DNA from: Candidatus Bathyarchaeota archaeon
GTDB taxonomy: Archaea > Thermoproteota > Bathyarchaeia > Bathyarchaeales > Bathycorpusculaceae
Reading direction: 5' to 3'
Assembly: GCA_026014545.1 (NCBI GenBank)
Contig: JAOZIH010000012.1
Span: 1-35,645 of the forward strand
DNA length: 35,645 nt
Below, piece after piece: positions 2,788 to 29,035 of the stretch. The position numbers and the translations under genes were made by a program. Under the pieces are notes generated by a model. It made no database searches. It saw nothing but the letters and a program-made list of their open reading frames with translations, and had not been told where the DNA came from. Numbering within the stretch: the first letter of the stretch is position 1; every line of letters starts with the position of its first letter.

Positions 2788-5700
2788 TTATCTTGGGAAA
2801 AACCAGCCTGAGGAGCCAATCTGTGTCACTTTGCTAGTTATTGTGAACGTGGTGTACTTTGTTCCAGGAGTATATACTCCTCCTAAGTAAAGCCCGTCTT
2901 TGAGTGTGCCTGTATGGCTACCGCCAATATAGACGTCATAAGTGGCGCCTAATGCCAGTTCTGGCATAGAAAACACGATTGACTGATACTGCTTTGTTGG
3001 TCTGAAAGTAAACAATTCAGTGCCATCGCTTGCTCGAACACTTACCAGCGTGCCTGCCCGATTTACTGTTCGGAAATTAAGCAACACCGAATATTGCGCA
3101 GATAAGTCTCCAGGAGGCAGCGCCATTCCAGCGCTTCCCCCAGCCACCAAATAGCCCATGGTCATGTTAAAGGCAACGTGATCCAGCGCCGAGTTCATAT
3201 CCGATGATGGGCCGTCCACTATTACAACTCCGCCGTTCATCACAACCGCACCGTTTGAGTCGATGCCGTCGCCTAAGGCGTTAACAAAGATGTAGCCGCC
3301 GTTAATGTACAAGTAATAGTCGCCTGAGTAAATGGAGAATCTCGCGCCTGGCTGCCCTGCTGGCGGAATAGTATTCGGGTCAACGCCCAAGTTTATGCCG
3401 TCATCGCTTGAAACAATGTGAATGGTTCCGCCGTTGATTGTTATGATCGGCGCTTCAATGCCTTCGTAAGAATTCGTGATGTTGATATCTCCATTGTTAA
3501 TGGTAATTGCTGTTTCAGCGCGGATGCCGTCATCCGCCGTTGAGAGCACGAAAGACCCGCCGTTCACGGTTAGAGTGCCGTCCGAGTGAACTGCGTCATC
3601 AGCCGAATTAATCGCAAATGAGCCGTAATCGATGGTTATGTCCACTTTTCCTTTGATGCCTTTGGCCGAGGTGCCTGCGCCTACAGTCATGGTGCTTCCG
3701 CCGCCGCATGTCAAATCAAAGTTTCCGCCAGTAATCAAAACATTTGTTTCTGCTTGAATTGCGTCGCCGCCAGCAACGATGTTTACTGAACCGTTTTCAA
3801 TCTTCACATATCCCAATGTGGCATTTAGCGCGTTATCAGCTTTCAGTCCATCTCCACCCGTGTTCAAGGTGAGCTTGCCGCCCTTTATGATTAAGTAATC
3901 TTTGCCTCGAATTCCATCGTCAACTGCGCTGACGAAGATTGTGCCGCTCTCTATGATTAATCCGTCTTTACCCGCTATGCCATCATTATATTTGCCGGTA
4001 ACTCTCAGCGATCCAGAACCTGTAATCTTCATGTCGGCTCTGCTGAAAAGTGCCGCGTTTGGCTCGTCCGCGTTTGGGCTTGCAAAAACATACAAGGCGC
4101 CATCCGTTACAGTATTTTCCGTTCCGGCTTCAAGCTGGATAATAACTTCATCCGCAGCTAAAACACAGATTGGCGCGTTGTTGGAGCAGCTGATTTGTGC
4201 ATTGTCCAAGATTAGCTTCACTGCTCCTGCATCTTTGGTATTCACGATTATCTGCCCATCATTTAAGGCGCCAGTTATTCTGTATGTGCCCGCTGATCTA
4301 ATCATCACTTTGTTGCCGCTGACATATGCCGGGCGGGAAGCACTAACCTCAATCGAGTTGCCTTTCAAACGCACATCTACAATTGTAGAGCTGTTCCATG
4401 GGCCATCTCCGTGATCCCCGGGAGCATTTAAAATTTTGATGTCTCCGCCAGTAACTGCTACAGAACTGCCACCATGAATTGTGTCGTCTCCTGTCAGGAG
4501 AGTGAAAGATCCGCCTGTAATTGTTACTTTGCCGTCTGAATGGATGGCGTCATCGGCTGAATCAATCCTGAAGGTTCCGCCGTTTATGGTCAAACTAACA
4601 GCCGCCTTGATGCCCTTGGCTGAATCATTTCCACCTATAATGCTCAGACTGCCTCCAGCCGCGATGAGGTTAAAGTTTCCGCCAGTGATCAAAGCATCTG
4701 TGCCTGCTTGCATAGCGTCTCCACCAGATTGGATACTTATCGCTCCCTTCGTGATTGTTAGGCTTCCTCTTGCGTCTATGCCGTCATCGTTTGAGGCAAT
4801 GCTGATTTCGCCGCCGTTGATAGCTATGACCTCGCCTTCTATTCCCTCAAAGGCTTTTGCAATACTGATGCTGCCGCCGTTGATCTCTATGGCGCCATCA
4901 GCGTGAATCGTGTCGTCGGTGGATGAAAGAATAAGGGTGCCCGCGTTCACTGTTATTGCGCCATTTGAATGGACAGCGTCGTTAGCTGAATTAATCGTGA
5001 ATTTTCCGCCTTTAATCGAGATGCCGGCAACACTCTTTATTCCCTTCGCGGAAGCATTAGCAGCCACGGTGCCACCGCTACCGCCTCCAGTGGTGAAAAC
5101 AAAATTGCCATCTATTATCGTAACGTTTCTTTCGGCTTGTATCGCGTCTCCACCCACTTTAATTTCTATGGTCCCGTTTAGAATAATGGCGTCTCCAGAG
5201 TTAGGATTCTGTAGGGTTAGAACTGCGTCTATGCCATCATTAGATGAGGTAACACGTATGTCTCCGCCGCTGATCGTGATGGTGGCGCTTTCTATACCCT
5301 CAAAAGATCTGACGATGTTGATGTTTCCGCCTGTGATTTCCACCCGATTGTTTGCATGAATGGCATCGTTGCCAGAGGAAAGGGTCAGCGTTCCGCCATT
5401 AACCGTTATCGTTCCATCCGAATGTAATGCGTCATCTGCTGAGTCAACATCAAACGTGCCGCCGTCAATTGTCACGCTAGCAAGCGCCTTAATGCCTTTA
5501 GCTGAAACATTACCTGCCAGTACGCTGTTGCTTCCGCCGCCCGTTTTCAAGCTGAAGCTGCCGCCTTTGATCAGAACGTTCTTTTCAGCTTGGAAGGCAT
5601 CGCCACCTGAAAAAATATTGATAGTGCCATTCTCGATGGAAATGTTGCCTAATGTTGCGTTTTCTGGATTATCCGACTTCAAGCCGTCGCCGCCTACTTC

Positions 5701-6378
5701 AAGATTCAAAACGCCACTTTTGACTATAATGCAGTCTCTGCCTCGGATGCCATCGTCAACTGACTTTACATTGATGATTCCACTTTGTATGATCAATGTG
5801 TCCTTGCCGGCTATGCCATCATTATAGTTGCTTTTCACATTGAGCACGCCGTTGCCCGCTATGGTAAGGTTGGATTTGCAGAAAATGGCTGCATTCGGCT
5901 CATTTTTCGCCGCGTCATCAAAAATGTACGAGGCTGAATCTTCAATGAAGTTCTCGGTGCCGTCAGCTATGATTATGACCACTTCTTCTGCATTCATGAT
6001 GCATATCGGAGCGCCAGTAGAACAGCGAAGATTGACGCCGTTTAGAACGAGCTTAACCGGGTCTTTATCGTTTGTGTACACAATTATGCGGCCGTCGTTT
6101 AAGGAGCCTGTTATCCTGTATGTGCCGCCAAATAGGATTGTGGCCTTGCTGCCGTTGACGGTTACAGGCTTGGAGTTGCTGACCTCTATTGAGTCTCCTT
6201 TCAGTGTTAACTCCACAGTAATGGCTGGATCCCAGTCAGCAGCATCGTCTGCCCCTGTTTTTCTTGGAGAACCGCCTGTAGAGATCTGGTAGCCTATAAA
6301 AAACGCCAACATCACAATGCACGCGATGGCTACGGCTATTAGTCCTTTATCCAAGCGGCTCACACTCGTTTCTTTCAA
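2788..6378 (-). CDS. Giant Cthe_2159-type beta-helix surface protein (carbohydrate-binding domain)
   Basis: A 1196-residue extracytoplasmic protein. Residues about 12-32 form an N-terminal membrane anchor or signal (LIAVAIACIVMLAFFIGYQ). The rest is built from short beta-strand repeats of the kind TI-GG-F-I-S-DDAIHSDG, GGDAIQAE, SFEGIE and SNDGIDA, which is the right-handed parallel beta-helix pattern of the Cthe_2159/DUF4353 family, known for acidic-polysaccharide and calcium binding. Two family modules are in tandem: each opens with a LKG-SIEVS...GTYRITG-LNDG-IIV unit (about residues 55 and 672). The SAKGIK marker recurs near residues 289, 440, 584 and 901, so module 1 carries three copies of a roughly 145-residue block and module 2 one. 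It is the last gene of the cassette, 35 bp after the VTC gene. The start TTG at 6378 lacks a good ribosome site; GTG codons follow nearby. Confidence 0.85.
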   Translation of the reverse strand: MKETSVSRLDKGLIAVAIACIVMLAFFIGYQISTGGSPRKTGADDAADWDPAITVELTLKGDSIEVSNSKPVTVNGSKATILFGGTYRITGSLNDGRIIVYTNDKDPVKLVLNGVNLRCSTGAPICIMNAEEVVIIIADGTENFIEDSASYIFDDAAKNEPNAAIFCKSNLTIAGNGVLNVKSNYNDGIAGKDTLIIQSGIINVKSVDDGIRGRDCIIVKSGVLNLEVGGDGLKSDNPENATLGNISIENGTINIFSGGDAFQAEKNVLIKGGSFSLKTGGGSNSVLAGNVSAKGIKALASVTIDGGTFDVDSADDALHSDGTITVNGGTLTLSSGNDAIHANNRVEITGGNINIVRSFEGIESATITISGGDIRVTSSNDGIDAVLTLQNPNSGDAIILNGTIEIKVGGDAIQAERNVTIIDGNFVFTTGGGSGGTVAANASAKGIKSVAGISIKGGKFTINSANDAVHSNGAITVNAGTLILSSTDDTIHADGAIEINGGSISIAKAFEGIEGEVIAINGGEISIASNDDGIDARGSLTITKGAISIQSGGDAMQAGTDALITGGNFNLIAAGGSLSIIGGNDSAKGIKAAVSLTINGGTFRIDSADDAIHSDGKVTITGGSFTLLTGDDTIHGGSSVAVTGGDIKILNAPGDHGDGPWNSSTIVDVRLKGNSIEVSASRPAYVSGNKVMIRSAGTYRITGALNDGQIIVNTKDAGAVKLILDNAQISCSNNAPICVLAADEVIIQLEAGTENTVTDGALYVFASPNADEPNAALFSRADMKITGSGSLRVTGKYNDGIAGKDGLIIESGTIFVSAVDDGIRGKDYLIIKGGKLTLNTGGDGLKADNALNATLGYVKIENGSVNIVAGGDAIQAETNVLITGGNFDLTCGGGSTMTVGAGTSAKGIKGKVDITIDYGSFAINSADDAVHSDGTLTVNGGSFVLSTADDGIRAETAITINNGDINITNSYEGIEAPIITINGGTIHIVSSDDGINLGVDPNTIPPAGQPGARFSIYSGDYYLYINGGYIFVNALGDGIDSNGAVVMNGGVVIVDGPSSDMNSALDHVAFNMTMGYLVAGGSAGMALPPGDLSAQYSVLLNFRTVNRAGTLVSVRASDGTELFTFRPTKQYQSIVFSMPELALGATYDVYIGGSHTGTLKDGLYLGGVYTPGTKYTTFTITSKVTQIGSSGWFFPR

Positions 6379-6413
6379 GATAGCTTAGCAAGACTTGAAT
6401 AGAAAAGGTCATG

Positions 6414-7157
6414 TTATCCGCTACCTCTACATTTCAAGTAGCAAGCAGGATTGCCTGTCAATGTGAAGTACTGTTCTCTGCACATCACAAATTTTCCTAT
6501 GGCTGATCTTGGCTGAATAGTATCAGGGAATAAACCGCTGATGAAGGTTGGCAGCACTTCATCGTATTTTACTTCTAAAACGATGCTTGGCTCGTTAATT
6601 ATGTTGACTGTGCAAATGTTTGGGTCAAAAAGGGTAATTTCTCCTAAGCCCATACGTATTTCTTTGTCAAAGGTTATGCGAACATTGCCTAGTGGGTGAA
6701 CGTAGGCTACGCGATTGTACTCTACAACAGCAACGGGTTTCATAAGGTCGCATCGAGCTTTATGATAAAAGCATCTGAGAAGCTTATGCTGCGAATTAGC
6801 TAAGAAATCCACGTCACCAGCGATAATGCGGTCTGCTTCTTTCCGTGTGATTCTCACGCTTTCTTTGAGAACATAATTGTGGATTTTCGTTTTCCGCTCA
6901 AACTTTATGAATGCATCGCTGTAATTATAAATGCGAATTCGATACTTATCTCGACTGTATACGCCTGCTTGCTTCTCCCAAAAAGCCGAGTTTCTGAAGT
7001 CATCAAAATACAAACTTCTAACATGATATTGCCCGGCAGCGCCCATGTTCGGATCTGGTTTTAGAACTTTGGCGAGGTTCTTCTTTAGAACATCAAATTG
7101 TAAGCGGTCAATCTTGTATTTGAACTCGTGTCTCAAGTAAAGCAATCGAGTGCTCAT
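6414..7157 (-). CDS. VTC-domain protein (triphosphate-tunnel / polyphosphate polymerase fold)
   Basis: About 247 residues of soluble VTC domain, the fold of the yeast Vtc4 catalytic domain that makes polyphosphate from ATP. Tunnel motifs occur in the expected order: LRHEFKYKI (ExK strand), SLYFDD, DKYRIRIYN, FIKFERKTK, AVVEYNRVAY, VRITFDKEIR, VLEVKYDE and QPRSAIGKF. The basic tunnel residues and the glutamate expected to hold the metal are therefore kept, so catalysis is plausible but unproven. No membrane segment is seen. The start is chosen at the ATG at 7157, 4 bp after the stop of the lamin-tail gene; an upstream ATG at 7184 would add nine residues, overlap that gene and has no ribosome site. 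In bacteria, VTC-domain genes commonly sit beside DUF4956, CotH/lamin-tail and Cthe_2159 genes, exactly the company found here. Confidence 0.85.
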   Translation of the reverse strand: MSTRLLYLRHEFKYKIDRLQFDVLKKNLAKVLKPDPNMGAAGQYHVRSLYFDDFRNSAFWEKQAGVYSRDKYRIRIYNYSDAFIKFERKTKIHNYVLKESVRITRKEADRIIAGDVDFLANSQHKLLRCFYHKARCDLMKPVAVVEYNRVAYVHPLGNVRITFDKEIRMGLGEITLFDPNICTVNIINEPSIVLEVKYDEVLPTFISGLFPDTIQPRSAIGKFVMCREQYFTLTGNPACYLKCRGSG

Positions 7158-7161
7158 AGTT

Positions 7162-7776
7162 TTACTTGCTCCGCTTCCTTCCATGTATAACTATAAACGC
7201 GCAAACGGCAAGAACTCCGCCAATGAATGCCCAAATTAGCCAATTAGTTGCGATGCCAGTTTGAGGATTTGCTATATTTGGTTTGCCCGGTGTTGGATTT
7301 ACTAGGTGGCACCAAGTGGATGCCCCGTCGGGGATTCGCCCATACGACACATCCCTAATTTGTTTTTTAAATGTTACTTGATCAATCACTGTGGTTCCAT
7401 CTGCAGCCAACAGCGTTAATGTGCCCCCGTTTGCGTTGGGCGAAAAGTTTGTGTGAAGCATATCTGGTCCAGAACCTCTGTTACCCCAAACTATAAGGAA
7501 CTCCCCTGGCGCTAATATGGTGCCGTTGGGGAACCTCCATGGGGGGCTGTCTAAATCCTCGGTGAGTATCATCCCGCTTAGATCAATCGGCGTGCTTCCG
7601 CCGTTGTAGATTTCAATCCAATCAGGGAAAGTCATATATGGCCCGGGAACGGCGCCGTCGTTGTCCGCCATGAACTCGTTAATTACAAGCCCGCCCTCTG
7701 ACTGCCCTGATGCCGGTACAAGCATTGACGGCAGTAAAAGTGCTAAAATCAAGATGATGCACAACGGGCTTTTCAA
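7162..7776 (-). CDS. Membrane-anchored lamin-tail-domain (LTD) surface protein
   Basis: A 204-residue protein with a signal peptide (residues 1-24, LCIILILALLLPSMLVPASG). A lamin-tail domain follows at about 28-145, recognised from LVINEFMADND, PDWIEIYNGG, IDLSGMILTED, LAPGEFLIVWG and YGRIPDGASTW. A C-terminal transmembrane helix lies at about 179-199, with a basic cytoplasmic tail (HGRKRSK). The topology is outside domain, membrane anchor, stop-transfer. In bacterial relatives the LTD is often fused to or next to a CotH kinase; no CotH is present here. The start is a TTG at 7776 preceded by GGAAGGCGAG. The gene lies 56 bp after the DUF4956 gene and is immediately followed by the VTC gene, so it is very likely co-transcribed with both. 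LTDs are thought to bind proteins or surface polymers; the ligand is unknown. Confidence 0.85.
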   Translation of the reverse strand: MKSPLCIILILALLLPSMLVPASGQSEGGLVINEFMADNDGAVPGPYMTFPDWIEIYNGGSTPIDLSGMILTEDLDSPPWRFPNGTILAPGEFLIVWGNRGSGPDMLHTNFSPNANGGTLTLLAADGTTVIDQVTFKKQIRDVSYGRIPDGASTWCHLVNPTPGKPNIANPQTGIATNWLIWAFIGGVLAVCAFIVIHGRKRSK

Positions 7777-7832
7777 TATACTCGCCTTCCGGTGTTTCTT
7801 TTTTAGATGTTTTTCTCTAATGGAGCTATTTC

Positions 7833-8498
7833 TCAGGTAGAGTCAGACCTGTAGCTGACTAGTGAAACATCCTTTACGCCTTTTATCTTCAAGAGTTCAT
7901 CCACTTTGTTTGCCTCTTTCGTGCTCATTCTAACTTCTCCCATGAGCTCTACGCCGTTGGCGCTGACGGTGCGTGATCGAAGCTTATACCTTGGAAGGGC
8001 TGCTTGAACAGCTTTCTCTGCTTCGTTATCGTAATGGATCACCAGCAAGTATGGGTCGGGGCCGCGGAAGCTGGTTCGTTCCAATACAAGTAGCAGTAAG
8101 CCGATTACTGGGGCTCCTACGATGGCGATCATGTACAATCCTGCGCCGCAGATAATTCCTACGGCTATTGCCCAGAATGTGAAGACTATGTCTTTTGGGT
8201 CTTTGATGGCGGTGCGGAAGCGAATGATGCTTAATGCGCCAACCATCCCTAATGAGAGGGCGATGTTTGAGCTGATGGGCAGGACGACTAGCGTTACTAC
8301 GAGGCCTGTGAGGACTAGTCCCACATTGAATTCTCTGGTGTAGATTACTCCTTTGAAGGTTTTTCGGTAAATGTAAAAAATAAACATGTTGATAATAAAA
8401 GATACAAGTAAGGCCACCAAAACCCGGTCTACAGTCAACTGCTGGTAAGTATTTGGTGGGTTCAAAAAATCTGTGATTAGTTGGTTCCAATCGATCAT
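7833..8498 (-). CDS. DUF4956 integral membrane protein
   Basis: A 221-residue protein with four to five hydrophobic segments (about 26-45, 55-75, 78-97, 108-125, 125-142). It carries the family signature GALSIIRFRTAIKDPKD, which links two helices, then a soluble C-terminal domain (about 150-221) with a small alpha/beta pattern ending in LLKIKGVKDVSLVSY. This matches DUF4956, a bacterial family of unknown biochemistry that travels with VTC-domain, CotH and Cthe_2159 genes. It is first in the four-gene minus-strand cassette and faces a 470-bp upstream region shared with the Lrp regulator. A role in membrane transfer or export coupled to the VTC protein is inference from neighbourhood only. Start ATG at 8498; the upstream GGGCAAAGC is a weak ribosome site. 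Confidence 0.85.
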   Translation of the reverse strand: MIDWNQLITDFLNPPNTYQQLTVDRVLVALLVSFIINMFIFYIYRKTFKGVIYTREFNVGLVLTGLVVTLVVLPISSNIALSLGMVGALSIIRFRTAIKDPKDIVFTFWAIAVGIICGAGLYMIAIVGAPVIGLLLLVLERTSFRGPDPYLLVIHYDNEAEKAVQAALPRYKLRSRTVSANGVELMGEVRMSTKEANKVDELLKIKGVKDVSLVSYRSDST

Positions 8499-8689
8499 GC
8501 TTTGCCCACAAAAGCCTAAACATCAGTTTTGTTTAAAAAGTTTTTTCTGAATTGGCTCCGAATCGGTTGCCTTTTTTTGTGGAAAAGTAAAAATTTGCCT
8601 TTTTTGCGGTTTATAGCTGATATTTGTGATTAGAATCGACAAAGCAGGTCTTAAAGGGTGAGGCGCGGTGGAGTTAGAAATTCACGGTT

Positions 8690-8833
8690 TCATGTTTTGC
8701 TGTGCGCTTTTTTGCTTTTTAATGAAATGCTTGCATTGATTGAATGAGCAACCTTTGAACTACTTTTTGCCGAGTAGCGTTTGGGTTGCTTACTTGCTTT
8801 TTCTGTTCCTTTCCCCATCGTTTTTGGGAACAT
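8690..8833 (-). CDS. Possible 47-residue lysine-rich protein, perhaps leaderless
   Basis: A frame from the ATG at 8833 encodes 47 residues with 11 lysines (MGKGTEKASKQPKRYSAKSS, then SLKSKKAHSKT). There are no acidic clusters or hydrophobic segments, so it may bind nucleic acid. On the minus strand, ATTTATACG (8855-8863) is centred about 26 bases upstream of this ATG, the spacing expected for a leaderless archaeal transcript. An in-frame GTG/ATG further upstream would give 62 residues but would overlap the TATA-like element. No family is recognised. A chance frame in AT-rich DNA remains quite possible. Confidence 0.35.
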   Translation of the reverse strand: MFPKTMGKGTEKASKQPKRYSAKSSSKVAHSINASISLKSKKAHSKT

Positions 8834-8898
8834 TTGTAAAGTTAAGTGTGTATTTCGTATAAATATATGCGCAAGCATTCCATTTTTTATAGGAAATG

Positions 8899-8931
8899 TT
8901 TATATAATTTTTAATTAAATGAACAATTGTT
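8899..8931 (+). promoter_or_regulatory. Lrp-gene promoter with AACAATTGTT palindrome
   Basis: TTTATATAA at 8899-8907 is a good archaeal TATA box. A perfect 10-bp palindrome, AACAATTGTT, lies at 8922-8931, about where transcription would begin (some 20-28 bp downstream of the TATA box). That position suits repression by occlusion, possibly autoregulation by the Lrp-like product. The flanking ATGAACAA also occurs in the two transporter promoters downstream. Confidence 0.55.
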
Positions 8932-8970
8932 TAAAAAGGTTTATGAGGATGGCAGCGAGGTGCAATTAAA

Positions 8971-9435
8971 GTGCAAACAAACTCGATTGAAAGTATGCAT
9001 TCTATTGATTTCCAAATAATTAGTTTACTTCAAGAAGATTGCCGATTAAGCTTCAATAAAATAGCGCGTAACCTTGGGATATCTGTTGGCACTGCATTTA
9101 ATCACGTCAAAGATTTGGAGAAAAAGGGTATAGTGAAAAGCTATACGGCAGTTGTTGACGCTGCCAAGCTTGGTTACACTTTGACTGCTTTAATACTGGT
9201 TCAAACCGAAGGAAGTCAGCTTTCACAAATTGAACAAGAAATTGCTAATACAGCAGCTGCAACGGCTGTTTACGATATCACAAGCGATTACGATATTGCT
9301 GTTATCGCCAAATTCAAAGACCGCGCCAGCTTAAACACCTACTTAAAAAATCTGCTGGCCAGCCCTCATATAAAAAGAACCGTCACCAATATTGCTCTAA
9401 ACGTAATTAAAGAGGACATGAGAATTAAATTGTAA
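8971..9435 (+). CDS. Lrp/AsnC-family transcriptional regulator
   Basis: A 154-residue protein. Residues about 9-60 form an N-terminal winged helix-turn-helix of AsnC type (SIDFQIISLLQEDCRLSF, then NKIARNLGISVGTAFNHVKDLEKKGIV). The C-terminal RAM/ligand-binding domain covers about 70-150 (LTALILVQTEG, YDITSDYDIAVIAKFKD). Lrp/AsnC proteins are octameric or dimeric feast/famine regulators that sense amino acids. The start is GTG at 8971, with GAGGTG about 9 bases upstream. It is followed after 21 bp by a ribbon-helix-helix regulator and then by amt, which suggests local control of nitrogen uptake. The effector is not deducible from sequence. Confidence 0.9.
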   Translation: MQTNSIESMHSIDFQIISLLQEDCRLSFNKIARNLGISVGTAFNHVKDLEKKGIVKSYTAVVDAAKLGYTLTALILVQTEGSQLSQIEQEIANTAAATAVYDITSDYDIAVIAKFKDRASLNTYLKNLLASPHIKRTVTNIALNVIKEDMRIKL

Positions 9436-17366: not shown

Positions 17367-19010
17367 CTACTTCATGATTGCCTTTAAGTCTTCTTCCGCT
17401 GTTGTTATGGGCATTATGTTAAACTTTTCCACCAGCACTTTAAGTATGTTCTGTGTTATGAACGCTGGCAGGCTCGGTCCTAAACGTATGTTCCTTATGC
17501 CTAGGTAAAGCAGCGACAGCAGTATGGCCACGGCTTTCTGCTCATACCACGATAGCACCAGAGAAAGCGGCAACTCATTCACTGTCACGTTGAATGCTTC
17601 GGCCAACGCCTGCGCGATTTTAATTGCTGAGTAGGCGTCGTTGCATTGTCCTATGTCTAGGAGCCGCGGAATCTCGTCAATTGTGCCTAAGTCTTTGTCG
17701 AAGAATCTAAATTTTCCGCAAGCAAGTGTTAGCACGACGGTGTCCTTAGGCGCTTTTTCCACGAATTCTGTGTAGTAGCTTCTTCCAGGTTTCGCGCCGT
17801 CGCAGCCGCCGACGAGCAGAAACTTTTTAATGCGGCCGCTTTTCACAGCAGCTATTATTTTGTCTGCCACGCTTAGCACTGCGTTTCTGCCGAAACCGGC
17901 GGTTACATACTTGCCTTCTCTATCAGCTGAAAAGCCCGGCAACTCCAACGCCCGCTTTATCGCCGGAGAAAAGTCTCTGCCTTCTATATGCGGCGTTCCC
18001 GGCCAGCCAACTGGACCCGAGGTGAAGATGTTGTCTTTGTAGCTTTCTATTGGCCTCTGGAGGCAATTGGTTGTCATGACTATGGCGCCGGGGAATTCTG
18101 CGAATTCGCGTTGCTGATTTTGCCATGCCGTGCCGTAGTGACCGTAAAAGTGCGGGTAAGCTTTCAACTTTGGATATCCATGCGCTGGCAGCATTTCGCC
18201 GTGTGTGTAAACGTAGATTCCTTTTCCTGCACTCTGTTTTAGAATTTCCTCGAGGTCTTTGAGGTCATGCCCTGACACGAGGATGGCTTTGCCCTTTTTC
18301 ACTCCAAGCGGCACCTTTGTTGGCACGGGATGCCCGTAGGTTTCAGTGTTTCCAGCGTCAAGGAGCTCCATGGCTCGGAGGTTTATTTCTCCGCATTTCA
18401 TGGCTAAGCCTACAAAATCGTTTATGCCGAGCGACTTGTCTAATGGTGCAGCGAGTCCTTGGTGGATGAAGTCGAAGACTTTCTCGTCTTTTTTGCCAAG
18501 GATATATGCGTGATAGGTGTAGGCTGCTACGCCTTTTAAGCCGTAAGTGAGTAGCCACTGAAGCGAGTGTAAGTCCTCGTTTACGATGGGTTCCGATTTT
18601 ATTCCATACAGTTTTCCTTGCGCTATTAAGCCTTCTCTGGTTTTATCTAAAGCCAAGTTGGCAGGACCATCGCTTGCATCTATGTTGCCTCCCACAAGCC
18701 GTATTTGTTGCTTCAGTTGATCGCGCAAATCCGCCGTTTTCTTAATGTACTCGATAATTCTGTCTGGGTCGAAGTTCACATTCGTTAAAGTAGAGAACAG
18801 TGCTTCGCAGGTGAATACGCTGATTTCTTCGGTTCTGATGCCTGCCTTCTTCGCTTCGATGACTAATTGTGAAAGCCCTCTGAGCAAATAAACAAGCAGG
18901 TCTTGGAGTGCAGCTACGTCTGGAGTTTTCCCGCAGACGCCGATTATTGTGCAGCCTTGCCCTTTAGCGGTTTGTTCGCACTGGTAACAAAACATTTGTT
19001 CTTGACTCAT
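17367..19010 (-). CDS. hcp: Hybrid-cluster protein (hydroxylamine reductase / NO-stress enzyme)
   Basis: About 547 residues, the full length of the class with a long N-terminal domain. The N-terminal cluster motif is CYQCEQTAKGQGC-x5-C. Hybrid-cluster ligands appear in order: SGHDL (His), YTHGEMLP (Glu), TTNCLQRP, VGGCDGAKPGR, LACGKFRF, IGQCNDAYSA, and SWYEQKAVA (Glu and Lys). Hcp reduces hydroxylamine in vitro and nitric oxide in vivo, protecting anaerobes from nitrosative stress. The ATG at 19010 is preferred over the one at 19019 because GAGG lies 10 bases before the former and only 2 before the latter. It follows an HTH_10 regulator by 61 bp with a perfect palindrome between them. Its electron donor (Hcr) is absent nearby. 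Confidence 0.95.
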   Translation of the reverse strand: MSQEQMFCYQCEQTAKGQGCTIIGVCGKTPDVAALQDLLVYLLRGLSQLVIEAKKAGIRTEEISVFTCEALFSTLTNVNFDPDRIIEYIKKTADLRDQLKQQIRLVGGNIDASDGPANLALDKTREGLIAQGKLYGIKSEPIVNEDLHSLQWLLTYGLKGVAAYTYHAYILGKKDEKVFDFIHQGLAAPLDKSLGINDFVGLAMKCGEINLRAMELLDAGNTETYGHPVPTKVPLGVKKGKAILVSGHDLKDLEEILKQSAGKGIYVYTHGEMLPAHGYPKLKAYPHFYGHYGTAWQNQQREFAEFPGAIVMTTNCLQRPIESYKDNIFTSGPVGWPGTPHIEGRDFSPAIKRALELPGFSADREGKYVTAGFGRNAVLSVADKIIAAVKSGRIKKFLLVGGCDGAKPGRSYYTEFVEKAPKDTVVLTLACGKFRFFDKDLGTIDEIPRLLDIGQCNDAYSAIKIAQALAEAFNVTVNELPLSLVLSWYEQKAVAILLSLLYLGIRNIRLGPSLPAFITQNILKVLVEKFNIMPITTAEEDLKAIMK

Positions 19011-19059
19011 TTTTCTCATTCCTCGTAAGATTAATAGTCAGCAGTGTCAAATAGCGCTT

Positions 19060-25071: not shown

Positions 25072-26385
25072 TTAGACAAAGTGCACTTTAACGCAGTGTG
25101 TAGAGCATGAGATGCATGGGTCATAGGCTCTCACCAGCATTTCTAGGCTTAGCTCGATCTCTTTTGGTGTCTTGTCAAGTATCTTGGGTAGCAATGCTTT
25201 CAAGTCTAGCTCAATGTTGCCATGGTTCTGGTTCGTTGGAATAATACAGTTAGCTTTTACGCAAACGCCTTTCTCATTGTATTTGTAATCGTGGAAGAGT
25301 ATGCCCCTTGGAACTTCAACTGCGCCGACGCCGCGGCCTGCCTTAACTTTTACTTCTGGCTTATAGTAGTCTGGTTGACTCCGTAAACCTGCGGCTTCTA
25401 ACTCATTGATTAGCTTAATTGAATCTTCTACGCTGTGAACGACTTCAACAAGCTGCGCAATGTTGTTCATGAATGGATTGTGACATATGGGCTTTAGCTT
25501 GAACATTTCAGCCGTTTTCTTCGCTAATGGCGAAAGCAGATTATAATTAATGTTGAACCTTGCAAGTGCGCCCACCATGTAGGATTCACGTGCATGTTTT
25601 GCCCATTTCGCAGTAGAGTGGGGGACAATGTATTCGTTGGTAAATAGGAGGTACTCGTTTACTGGTGCTGTGCCTGTGTCAGTTGACGCAATTTTTCCAT
25701 CGTAAAGCGCGTATTCCTCTGGATTGGTTAGCGCGATGAATTCTGTTTCGCGAGTAAAGTCTGGGAATTTGTGCATTCTACTCTTGAATAGTTCTGCGAG
25801 CGCTTGAAGATCTGGGATGGCAGCTTTCAGTCTATCTCTGAGTGCAGTTAGTTCCTTCATGGTAGGAATCTTAGAGAACCCGCCTGGTAGCAGCCTCTGC
25901 GGGTGCGTTGTCCTGCCGCAGATCATATTTGACATTTCATTTGCTAGTCTATGTACGCGTAAAACAGTTTTTACTTCATTCGGGTGCGTCGATGCAAGGG
26001 GGATGACTGAACCGACATCCATTAAGTCAGGAAGAACCAGAAAGCCCAAGTGTAAGATGTGACTTTGCATGTTCTCGGCGTGCAATGCAAGTTTTCTCAA
26101 TTTAAGATCCTGTTCGCTGATGGTTATACCCATCGCGGCTTCTGTCGCCTTTAAAGATGCAAGCGTATGCCCTATCGAGCAGATGCCGCATATGCGCGAA
26201 GTTATATGATGCAGCTCATTCCATTGCCGACCTACTACCATGGCTTCAAAGAATCTTGGCGCCTCAGAAATCGCCCATTCGCAGCGTTCTATGGTGCCAT
26301 TTTTTACGTTTACGTAGATGTTGCCGTGTCCTTCAACCCGTGTCACGTGGTGTACTTCAATATTAAAGCTTGGTTTGTCTTTCAT
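25072..26385 (-). CDS. hydA: Group 3b [NiFe] hydrogenase large (alpha) subunit
   Basis: The catalytic subunit of a cytosolic sulfhydrogenase-type [NiFe] hydrogenase. N-terminal ligands are in TSRICGICSIGH (CxxC, about residues 63-66) and C-terminal ligands in DPCISCSTH, with HHVTRVEGHG at the start. A short tail CVKVHFV follows the last conserved His and is presumably removed during maturation. The start is the ATG at 26385: it overlaps the small-subunit stop as ATGA and has GGAGAGG upstream; the ATG at 26403 is less likely. Gene order (beta-gamma, delta, alpha) is that of Pyrococcus sulfhydrogenase I. No hyp or protease gene lies in the window. Confidence 0.93.
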   Translation of the reverse strand: MKDKPSFNIEVHHVTRVEGHGNIYVNVKNGTIERCEWAISEAPRFFEAMVVGRQWNELHHITSRICGICSIGHTLASLKATEAAMGITISEQDLKLRKLALHAENMQSHILHLGFLVLPDLMDVGSVIPLASTHPNEVKTVLRVHRLANEMSNMICGRTTHPQRLLPGGFSKIPTMKELTALRDRLKAAIPDLQALAELFKSRMHKFPDFTRETEFIALTNPEEYALYDGKIASTDTGTAPVNEYLLFTNEYIVPHSTAKWAKHARESYMVGALARFNINYNLLSPLAKKTAEMFKLKPICHNPFMNNIAQLVEVVHSVEDSIKLINELEAAGLRSQPDYYKPEVKVKAGRGVGAVEVPRGILFHDYKYNEKGVCVKANCIIPTNQNHGNIELDLKALLPKILDKTPKEIELSLEMLVRAYDPCISCSTHCVKVHFV

Positions 26386-27122
26386 CTTTTCCTCTCCTGC
26401 CAACCGAAATATAACCTAAACTTGTTTATTGCCTCATCAACTGTGAGGCCATACTTGATTAGAACTTCTTTCTGCGAATTCTCATTCGGATTGTCGACAA
26501 GCCCGCGACATCCCCAGCATATCGTTCCCTCGTTTACGCAGCATGAGTTGCAGCCTGCTCTGGTTACGGGGCCTACACAGAATTGGCCTCTTTCGAACGC
26601 GCAGACATTCTCGTTTTTCTTGCATTCAACGCAGACAGGATAATTGGGTATGTCTGGTTTTTTGCCCAGCAAAAGCGATTTAACAACGCTTAGAAATTCT
26701 TCCTTGTCTATTGGGCATCCATGTACGTAGGCGTCAACAGGAATCACCGCGTCTATCGGTCTAGCAGCATAAGTATCAAACAAGTAAGCTTTGTCTCCGT
26801 ACACTGTCTTTCTAACTTCGTCTAAGTCTTGGTAGTTTTTTAGCGAGTTGATACCGCCTATTGTTGCACATGAGCCTATAGCGACCACGATTTTTGCGTT
26901 CTTTCTTATCTGTTTCAACCTATCTTCGTCCTGAAGCCGCGTACATGAGCCCTCAATGAAGGCTATGTCATAGTTGTCGCTGTGCTCTTTCATGACTTCT
27001 CTGAAACTCACAACTTCCACTTGACCTAGAAGGGTAAGCAATTCCTCTTCTAAATTGGCGATTTGCAGCTGGTCTCCCTCGCATCCTGCAAAGTCAAAGA
27101 AAGCAACTTTCGGTTTCATCAT
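26382..27122 (-). CDS. hydD: Group 3b [NiFe] hydrogenase small (delta) subunit
   Basis: A 246-residue small subunit that carries the Fe-S relay next to the active site. The proximal-cluster ligands are in FAGCEGDQLQ, IEGSCTR, AIGSCATIGG and HGCPIDKEE. The C-terminal part has further Cys-rich motifs (CVECKKNENVC, CVGPVTRAGCNSCC, CWGCRG) for additional [4Fe-4S] clusters, typical of the group 3b/3c delta subunit. The ATG at 27122 overlaps the upstream gene's stop by four bases (ATGA), so it is translationally coupled. Confidence 0.93.
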   Translation of the reverse strand: MMKPKVAFFDFAGCEGDQLQIANLEEELLTLLGQVEVVSFREVMKEHSDNYDIAFIEGSCTRLQDEDRLKQIRKNAKIVVAIGSCATIGGINSLKNYQDLDEVRKTVYGDKAYLFDTYAARPIDAVIPVDAYVHGCPIDKEEFLSVVKSLLLGKKPDIPNYPVCVECKKNENVCAFERGQFCVGPVTRAGCNSCCVNEGTICWGCRGLVDNPNENSQKEVLIKYGLTVDEAINKFRLYFGWQERKR

Positions 27123-29035
27123 AACGCCTCCGGTATTCCTTTAATTTTTGAGTAATTGAATACTGGCCCATCTTTACACACATAGATCTGGTTGATTTGG
27201 CAGTGGCCACATTTCCCGACGCCGCATTTCATTCTCCGCTCAAGCGAGAGAATTATGTGGTCATCTGGAACCTTTCTGCTTTTGAGATCCGCGATAACAA
27301 ACTTGTACATAATCGGTGGGCCACATACTATTGCGTAAGTGGTTTCTGGGTCAAAATTGACTTGAGGAATTAAGGTAGTGATTACGCCTATGTTACCTTC
27401 CCATAATTCATTTTCAGGGCACCAGTCTACAGTGGGCTTAAATTCCACATCATTCCTTTTCGCGAGCGCCCGAAGCTCATCACCGAACAGCATTTCTCTG
27501 GGTTCTTTGCAACCGTAGAGTAGGATAATACGGCCGTAATCTTTTCGGTTGTCCAAAACGTAGTTAAATAATGACCGCAACGGTGCAATTCCAAGGCCGC
27601 CGGCTATGAAAAGCAGGTCTTTGCCTTTCAACTGTTTAGCGTCAAAGCCGTTTCCAAACGGGCCTCTGATTCCTACTTTATCGCCTACGTTAAGCGCATG
27701 TAATCTGGTTGTTACGCTTCCTACTTTGCGTACACATAGTTCAAATGTGCCCTTTTTTGTTGGCGACGACGATATAGAAATTGGTGCTTCACCGACGCCG
27801 AAAACCGAGACTTCAACAAATTGCCCGGGTTTGTGGTTTAAGTCGGTTCCATCATCCAGCTTGATTTCAAACAATGTTTCTTTAGCCGTCATCGGCACTT
27901 TTCTGACAATAGTTGCTAATTTCGGAACATAATCTATATTGCCTTCAGTTTGGATTTCCACTTCCGGCGCAGCAGCAGGCGCCACCTGCTCGCCCATGCT
28001 GCGAAGTTCATGGTACATATCGTTGAATAATTTGATTGGATTAGCTATGTCCGGCAGGCAATTTGAAGAGCATCTGCCACAGCCAACGCATGAAATGAAA
28101 CCAAATCTGTCAAAAAGGTATTTCCCCTTCTTAAAGTACCTATGTCTATATCTAGTCGGCCTAGTGGGGCGGAAGTTTTCGCCTGAAGCAATTTTGGCAA
28201 AGTCTTCCAGTAGGCAACCGTCCCATGTTCTTATTCTTTCGCCGTATTCCAGTGATAAGTCTGCTTGGTCTTTAACGTCAAAGCAGTAGCATGTAGGACA
28301 CACTAGCACGCAGGAACCGCAGGCTAAGCATTTTTCGGCGTGCTTTTCCCAAAAACCGCTTTTTTCATAGCTTTTGCTTAGCAATTCGGGGATTAGTTCT
28401 GGTGGGAAATCAAACTTTTGTTGAGCCATATCCATTACTTCACGCTTCTTCTGCCCAACCAGCTGGATGTCCCGTGCAAGCGCCGGTTTCACATTCTTAG
28501 CATATTTATCCAGCAGTTGTTCTCCTTTCTGCGAGCCAATATTTATGGCATATCTATTCCCAAGGTCAGTCAACATTAGGTCGTAGCCATAGTCAATTAC
28601 AGCGCAGCCCATGGCTGGCGCAAAGCACCATTTTGACATTTTTTGAATGTTGATGCCTATGATTATAGAGGCTTGTCTTTTCTCGAAGTAGTAGGGGTCT
28701 GATTTTGTTTCTCTGAATATCTCATCCATATGTAAAAGCGCTACTATGTCGTAAGGGTGAACTCCAATTATTACCATCGGCTTGGCTTCGGCAGGGCTCT
28801 TAGCGGCGAATCCCTTAGCTAAATCATAGGTTACCAATGTTTCGCGTTGAGGGAAAAAATACTTCTTCGGCGGAAGAATTGTTACATCATAGTCCAATCG
28901 CAATTCGCTGGCGGATTCCAATGGGCCAAAGGCGAATTTGTCTCCTTTTGCTTTGACGCCTATAACATTTAATGTCTTATCTTTTATTAGAGCTTCGACA
29001 AAATTAGCGAAGTCTTCTTTGGAAATTATGCGCAT
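27119..29035 (-). CDS. Fused beta-gamma electron-transfer subunit of group 3b hydrogenase
   Basis: 638 residues joining two proteins that are usually separate. Residues 1-340 are the beta (HydB) part with ferredoxin-type clusters CLACGSCVLVCPTCYC (about 235) and CVGCGRCSSNC (about 313). An Ala/Pro/Glu-rich linker (GEQVAPAAAPEVEIQTEG, about 347-364) leads to the gamma (HydG) part: an FAD domain (PGQFVEVSVFGVGEAPISIS), a nucleotide domain (FIAGGLGIAPLRSL) and a [2Fe-2S] site CGVGKCGHC...C (about 602-618). It passes electrons between the hydrogenase core and NAD(P). The reading frame is continuous through the linker. The ATG at 29035 has GGGAG 8 bases upstream. It is the first gene of the minus-strand operon. 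Confidence 0.93.
   Translation of the reverse strand: MRIISKEDFANFVEALIKDKTLNVIGVKAKGDKFAFGPLESASELRLDYDVTILPPKKYFFPQRETLVTYDLAKGFAAKSPAEAKPMVIIGVHPYDIVALLHMDEIFRETKSDPYYFEKRQASIIIGINIQKMSKWCFAPAMGCAVIDYGYDLMLTDLGNRYAINIGSQKGEQLLDKYAKNVKPALARDIQLVGQKKREVMDMAQQKFDFPPELIPELLSKSYEKSGFWEKHAEKCLACGSCVLVCPTCYCFDVKDQADLSLEYGERIRTWDGCLLEDFAKIASGENFRPTRPTRYRHRYFKKGKYLFDRFGFISCVGCGRCSSNCLPDIANPIKLFNDMYHELRSMGEQVAPAAAPEVEIQTEGNIDYVPKLATIVRKVPMTAKETLFEIKLDDGTDLNHKPGQFVEVSVFGVGEAPISISSSPTKKGTFELCVRKVGSVTTRLHALNVGDKVGIRGPFGNGFDAKQLKGKDLLFIAGGLGIAPLRSLFNYVLDNRKDYGRIILLYGCKEPREMLFGDELRALAKRNDVEFKPTVDWCPENELWEGNIGVITTLIPQVNFDPETTYAIVCGPPIMYKFVIADLKSRKVPDDHIILSLERRMKCGVGKCGHCQINQIYVCKDGPVFNYSKIKGIPEAL

Follow-up and report, generated by a model that had tools for sequence, protein, structure and literature searches.

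The window analysed here, 35,645 nucleotides long, is an entire contig (C38) of a Candidatus Bathyarchaeota archaeon genome of 1.86 Mb that is 98% complete. ORF calling found four consecutive genes on the minus strand (Table 1), at the positions given in an earlier note made from the letters of the DNA. The gaps of 56, 4 and 35 bases reported there were also recovered, given a VTC start at 7157. This ATG is preferred, with a purine-rich stretch resembling a ribosome-binding site upstream of it, and another in-frame ATG lies further upstream at 7184. The four domains named in the note, DUF4956, lamin-tail (LTD), VTC and Cthe_2159, all scored above their Pfam cut-offs. Topology predictions agreed as well with what it had described: a polytopic DUF4956 protein, an anchored LTD protein facing outside, a soluble VTC protein and a membrane-tethered beta-helix protein.

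Table 1. Genes of the cassette and units of the duplicated surface protein (positions in the window).
Feature	Position	Strand	Evidence
DUF4956 membrane protein, 221 aa	7833..8498	-	PF16316, 58.4 bits (cut-off 30.6)
Lamin-tail-domain (LTD) surface protein, 204 aa	7162..7776	-	PF00932, 68.6 bits, above cut-off
VTC-domain triphosphate-tunnel protein, putative polyphosphate polymerase	6414..7157	-	PF09359, 118.4 bits (cut-off 23)
Giant Cthe_2159 beta-helix surface protein, 1196 aa	2788..6378	-	PF14262, 763 bits, above cut-off
N-terminal Cthe_2159 unit of the tandem duplication, aa 44-654	4417..6249	-	46.6% identity with the C-terminal unit over 436 columns
C-terminal Cthe_2159 unit, aa 655-1196	2791..4416	-	about 50% identity over about 540 aa with single-unit relatives

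Elsewhere in the window, a NiFe hydrogenase large-subunit-like gene with a FAD/NAD and 4Fe-4S reductase gene (25072-29035, minus strand) and a prismane-family gene (17367-19019) belong to ordinary anaerobe metabolism. A small membrane-anchored protein encoded at 1556-1963 on the minus strand matched the UpsA pilin weakly (E 0.0012, below the cut-off), and a tRNA-Pro was the only match of an RNA family scan. Contamination of the assembly by a bacterial contig is unlikely, since the VTC and DUF4956 proteins of the window are nested in a supported archaeal clade (SH-aLRT 99-100).

Yeast Vtc4 polymerises phosphate from ATP, and Vtc1, Vtc3 and Vtc4 form a transmembrane channel. The best PDB fold match of the predicted model of the archaeal VTC protein (pLDDT 91) was the Vtc4-AppNHp-Mn structure 3g3r (E 4e-12), with hydrolase and cyclase members of the triphosphate-tunnel (TTM) enzymes all behind; a single-sequence PDB search gave no match. 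A profile alignment to Vtc4, in whose numbering chain residue 241 corresponds to E426, paired R18, K22, R82, R84, E96 and K98 with R196, K200, R264, R266, E279 and K281, and K107, R158, R169, D173, E204 and K206 with K294, R361, R373, D377, E426 and K428, respectively. The pairing of Vtc4 K458 with K231 is positional only. All 12 paired residues are invariant wherever the column is covered in 55 sequences. The invariance of R56, R78, K80, R82 and R84 in the fetched loci is partly selected, since these residues lie in the patterns used to search GTDB; the other paired residues do not, and the 11 positive genomes of the phylum were found by HMM. Yeast VTC is inactivated by mutating R264, R266 and E426 of Vtc4 (PMC9911596).

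The active site differs from that of Vtc4 at E20, a glutamate kept across the prokaryotic VTC family and matched by a threonine in the yeast enzyme. The archaeal protein (248-256 aa) consists of the VTC domain only, with no SPX domain, DUF202-type transmembrane domain or transmembrane segment detected in it. Since a genome search found neither PPK1 nor PPK2, VTC is the only recognised polyphosphate polymerase candidate of this archaeon. It is no simple substitute for PPK1, because some VTC-bearing genomes carry PPK1 as well. Judged by its retention of the Vtc4 catalytic residues, the protein is probably a polyphosphate polymerase.

In the AlphaFold model of the DUF4956 protein (pLDDT 86), the membrane region contains five helices; the C-terminal domain, which is cytosolic, has the order beta-alpha-beta-beta-alpha-beta and resembles ferredoxin and ACT folds. 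The nearest structures to this domain were the MgtC C-terminal domains 2lqj and 7qa5 and ACT domains, at a weak E of about 1e-3. The family has been described as MgtC-like, with four transmembrane segments and an ACT domain (PMC12345266). The protein resembles the MgtC/SapB family in combining a membrane region with such a C-terminal domain, but it scored 21 bits against PF02308, below the cut-off of 31.4, and belongs to a separate family with an invariant motif of its own, SLGMxGALSIxRFRT..K.P, in which R93, R95 and K99 are invariant in 46 sequences. By the positive-inside rule, this basic motif would face the cytosol, the side of the VTC enzyme. A profile search with DUF4956 found no similarity to the Vtc transmembrane chains or to any solved structure.

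The conserved clustering that would mark a system, as proposed in the earlier note, was found to be strict for VTC and DUF4956. VTC was present in 11 of 398 genomes of the phylum by HMM search, and DUF4956 was above its cut-off in the same 11 and in none of the other 387; two further genomes of the phylum gave only sub-threshold DUF4956 matches. The probability of this coincidence is 1e-21 under independence of genomes, a figure made too strong by kinship among them. The positive genomes cover six genera, with patchy presence inside one of them (g4). In all 11, DUF4956 and VTC are adjacent or have only an LTD or CotH-LTD gene between them, which in the window is the LTD gene. The 10 relatives examined in full carry both genes on the same strand in this arrangement, with mostly different flanking genes. 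The two domains also mark the same three of 14 named control genomes. Chance clustering of the cassette is ruled out by its phylum-wide co-occurrence.

The same linkage was found in 80 GTDB loci fetched by similarity. As the top matches to an archaeal query they are no random sample, and three of them (L035, L037 and L047) repeat contigs of G184, G175 and G261 from the phylum sample. DUF4956 adjoins VTC or lies one gene away in 79 of the 80; in the remaining one (L042), the contig is 3.7 kb long and stops just past VTC. Bathyarchaeota, Methanomethylicus, a Methanocellaceae MAG, a Lokiarchaeota MAG and many Firmicutes are represented. A search of the class to which the Methanocellaceae MAG belongs returned 11 genomes, of which one was positive. 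No VTC-DUF4956 fusion was seen among the relatives and the 80 fetched loci, and a literature search found no paper on DUF4956 together with the VTC domain. VTC and DUF4956 are thus the core of the cassette, the surface proteins being variable, and DUF4956 is the near-constant membrane partner of VTC.

Some individual genomes and loci deserve mention. Methanosarcina acetivorans and Corynebacterium glutamicum, among the control scans, each matched VTC, DUF4956 and CotH. Another control genome, Bacteroides ihuae, matched VTC, DUF4956 and Cthe_2159 and did not match CotH, a set much like that of the window. The VTC-DUF4956-Cthe_2159 module of G249 (L023, 11465-14605) falls outside the archaeal clade in the tree, on a long branch beside Cohnella, a position that suggests a separate transfer. 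In G097 (L032, 14960-16421), a TGA splits DUF4956 and VTC is shortened, by decay or assembly error, and in G087 (L028) the VTC gene at 8157-9065 is interrupted near its C-terminus by a run of N of about 34 codons.

The LTD protein comprises a signal peptide, one LTD and a C-terminal transmembrane anchor (transmembrane segments 5-23 and 179-197). In G184, G261 and a Bathyarchaeum chromosome (L036), the same slot encodes a fusion in which two to five LTDs come after a CotH kinase domain. Over its LTD and anchor, the window protein shares 51% identity with the C-terminus of this fusion in G261. Locus L034 encodes four LTDs without CotH and clusters with the CotH-bearing G184 (SH-aLRT 88). CotH scored above its cut-off in two of the 398 genomes, both among the 11 with VTC and DUF4956; it was found nowhere in the window's genome and is missing from most archaeal loci examined, and the LTD gene itself is missing in some relatives. 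In bacterial loci, CotH is the commonest third gene (57/71). The order of domains varies, with CotH first and then LTDs in archaea (L027:7989-11855, L031:8425-10920, L036:4613-7969), and LTDs first and then CotH in Clostridia loci (L043:4098-7217, L089:5050-8022).

To judge by its match to the G261 fusion, the LTD protein of the window is probably what remains of a CotH-LTD protein after loss of the CotH part. The pattern is most simply read as several losses of CotH, starting from an ancestral fusion; repeated gain could also have produced it. The description of the host as an archaeon without CotH is true of the genome and misses the CotH-LTD fusion in the same slot of close relatives. Since that slot is shared, the cassette probably represents a derived version lacking CotH and no separate archaeal system.

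The founder of the Cthe_2159 family binds polysaccharides in a calcium-dependent manner. The giant protein of the window has the same beta-helix domain, by sequence, as the Clostridium thermocellum structures 4peu and 4phb (E 3.9e-35). It differs from them in being membrane-anchored, duplicated in tandem and encoded beside VTC and DUF4956. It has one N-terminal transmembrane segment (12-30) and is strongly acidic, with a net charge of -49. The proteins of relatives comprise one unit each, about 600-645 aa long, and sequence comparison identifies the 1196-aa protein as an internal tandem duplication whose C-terminal unit is colinear with these full-length proteins. Strong matches to the family were obtained in seven of the 398 genomes, all of them among the 11 core-bearing ones and all beside the core; one weak match lies outside these 11. 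The coincidence probability is about 1e-12 under independence of genomes, which does not hold, and kinship makes this figure, too, too strong.

For the surface genes, the clustering proposed in the note is looser than for the core: Cthe_2159 occurs in seven of the 11 genomes and is absent from four, LTD recurs as well, and neither is constant. Cthe_2159 is co-directional with the core in the window, L023 and L028 and convergent in L024, L025, L029 and L030. A fixed four-gene operon was ruled out, since this orientation varies and LTD or Cthe_2159 is missing in some relatives.

Part of this module is known from bacteria. Genes for CotH, a polyphosphate polymerase and DUF4956 are accessory genes contiguous with pel operons of Gram-positive bacteria (PMC7112168), and SIR_1592-1594 of S. 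intermedius form such a CotH/VTC/DUF4956 trio (PMC12345266). Deletion mutants of that species in DUF4956 or cotH lost more than half of their aggregation in artificial sputum medium and had an altered amount of Pel, and after deletion of VTC (SIR_1593) aggregation persisted, with no defect reported (PMC12345266). The statement of the earlier note that no function has been established for the set was nearly right, and is qualified by the description of the bacterial trio as genes accessory to Pel whose deletion has mild effects (PMC7112168, PMC12345266). According to the 2025 paper, the CotH-VTC-DUF4956 synteny was not found beyond Pel loci (PMC12345266).

PelG was searched for in genomes compared here. 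It was found in none of the 17 archaeal or archaea-like genomes tested, that of the window included; among 40 bacterial genomes it was present in 14 and absent from 26, single absences being soft because some of the genomes are draft MAGs. All 14 genomes with PelG have the order VTC-DUF4956 without LTD, and PelG occurs in none of the 23 loci with the order DUF4956-VTC among the tested GTDB loci (L033-L111). CotH is retained in many PelG-free loci, including those of two Cohnella isolates (L041, L068). This distribution revises the published statement, since the VTC/DUF4956 arrangement with CotH also occurs outside Pel loci, and an accessory function for Pel as the general role is ruled out for archaea and many Firmicutes by the lack of PelG. 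The cassette shares with the Pel accessory genes the VTC and DUF4956 families, their neighbourhood and a secreted partner protein, but differs in its archaeal host, the order DUF4956-LTD-VTC, the lack of PelG and of a CotH domain, and the addition of the giant Cthe_2159 protein. The VTC-DUF4956 module is thus known in part, and its CotH-less, Pel-free archaeal variant is new.

A possible mechanism can be proposed for the cassette. Like Vtc4 in yeast, the VTC protein would use ATP to polymerise phosphate on the cytosolic side. DUF4956, as its obligate membrane partner, would anchor the enzyme and regulate it through the ACT-like domain. It would probably also hand the polyanion, as it grows, to the membrane or across it, a task that in yeast falls to the Vtc transmembrane domains. 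The LTD and Cthe_2159 surface proteins may then form or organise an extracellular matrix that retains the polymer or makes use of it. The computed basis comprises the domains, the retention of catalytic residues, the strict linkage of VTC with DUF4956, the surface topology, the variability of CotH and the lack of PPK1 and PPK2; that the polymer is polyphosphate, that it is exported and that it has a role in the matrix is what we infer from these. The earlier note had proposed such an interplay of a cytosolic phosphate-polymer enzyme, a membrane protein and a surface scaffold, a working hypothesis that fits the evidence; its reading as a whole is partly supported. The recurrence of surface partners beside the core and the phenotypes of the S. 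intermedius DUF4956 and CotH deletions speak for the proposal. The main point against it is the lack of a VTC-deletion phenotype in S. intermedius (PMC12345266), to which the dissimilarity of DUF4956 from the Vtc transmembrane chains, the lack of a fusion, E20 and the presence of PPK1 in some VTC-bearing genomes are added. Synthesis of polyphosphate by VTC, with DUF4956 anchoring, regulating and probably passing the polymer and the surface proteins as matrix partners, is therefore advanced tentatively, at somewhat less than an even chance.

Other explanations were weighed against this one. The core might serve phosphate or energy homeostasis in the cytosol, with VTC building a polyphosphate store that the MgtC-like DUF4956 senses or limits, no export and the surface genes loosely attached. 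The likeness to MgtC, which in Salmonella alters phosphate metabolism (discussed in PMC12345266), and the constancy of the core beside variable surface genes agree with it. However, LTD or CotH-LTD and Cthe_2159 recur beside the core in archaea and bacteria, and strong Cthe_2159 matches in the phylum are limited to core-bearing genomes, so that this explanation is rather unlikely. Another idea is that LTD and Cthe_2159 adjoin VTC and DUF4956 by chance or by hitch-hiking, without any link in function. The varying orientation of Cthe_2159 and its absence from four of the 11 genomes would suit it, but all seven strong matches in the 398 genomes lie beside the core in differing flanking contexts, and it is considered very improbable.

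The VTC protein could also be a triphosphate hydrolase or a nucleotide-signal enzyme instead of a polymerase, as other triphosphate-tunnel enzymes are, since the TTM fold is common to hydrolases and cyclases and E20 is kept. In hydrolytic TTMs, however, glutamates are reported to take the place of the basic exit residues of Vtc4 (PMC4641920), whereas basic residues are kept here at the three sites paired with Vtc4 R196, K294 and K428, which would correspond to those exit residues. With Vtc4 as the best structural match in addition, a hydrolase or signalling role seems improbable. We give as little credence to an ancestral system that feeds a secreted CotH kinase with exported polyphosphate as its extracellular phosphate donor, from which the archaeon lost the kinase and kept the delivery core. 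The prevalence of CotH as third gene in bacterial loci, its secretion (PMC12345266) to where ATP should be scarce and the slot shared with CotH-bearing relatives would favour it, but no evidence was found of CotH using polyphosphate. In addition, the core persists without CotH in several lineages, among them most of the archaeal loci examined, so feeding a kinase cannot be its sole role.

Returning to polyphosphate synthesis at the membrane, the cassette resembles the yeast VTC complex in its TTM catalytic domain with conserved catalytic residues and in having a polymerase in the cytosol that is probably coupled to a membrane component. It differs in that the membrane protein is separate, apparently unrelated and MgtC-like with an ACT domain, and no SPX or DUF202-type domain is seen. 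A bolder generalisation, which we regard as possible though on balance unlikely, is that VTC and DUF4956 are the prokaryotic counterpart of the VTC complex, a two-gene machine for polyphosphate synthesis and translocation whose polymer, delivered to the surface of archaeal and bacterial cells, cross-links a matrix or supplies secreted CotH kinases. Since the irreducible unit is VTC plus DUF4956, its function can be tested in tractable hosts such as Methanosarcina acetivorans and Corynebacterium glutamicum. If the mechanism favoured here is right, the module would constitute a second, VTC-type route to polyphosphate in prokaryotes, with its own membrane partner, directed to the surface and independent of PPK.
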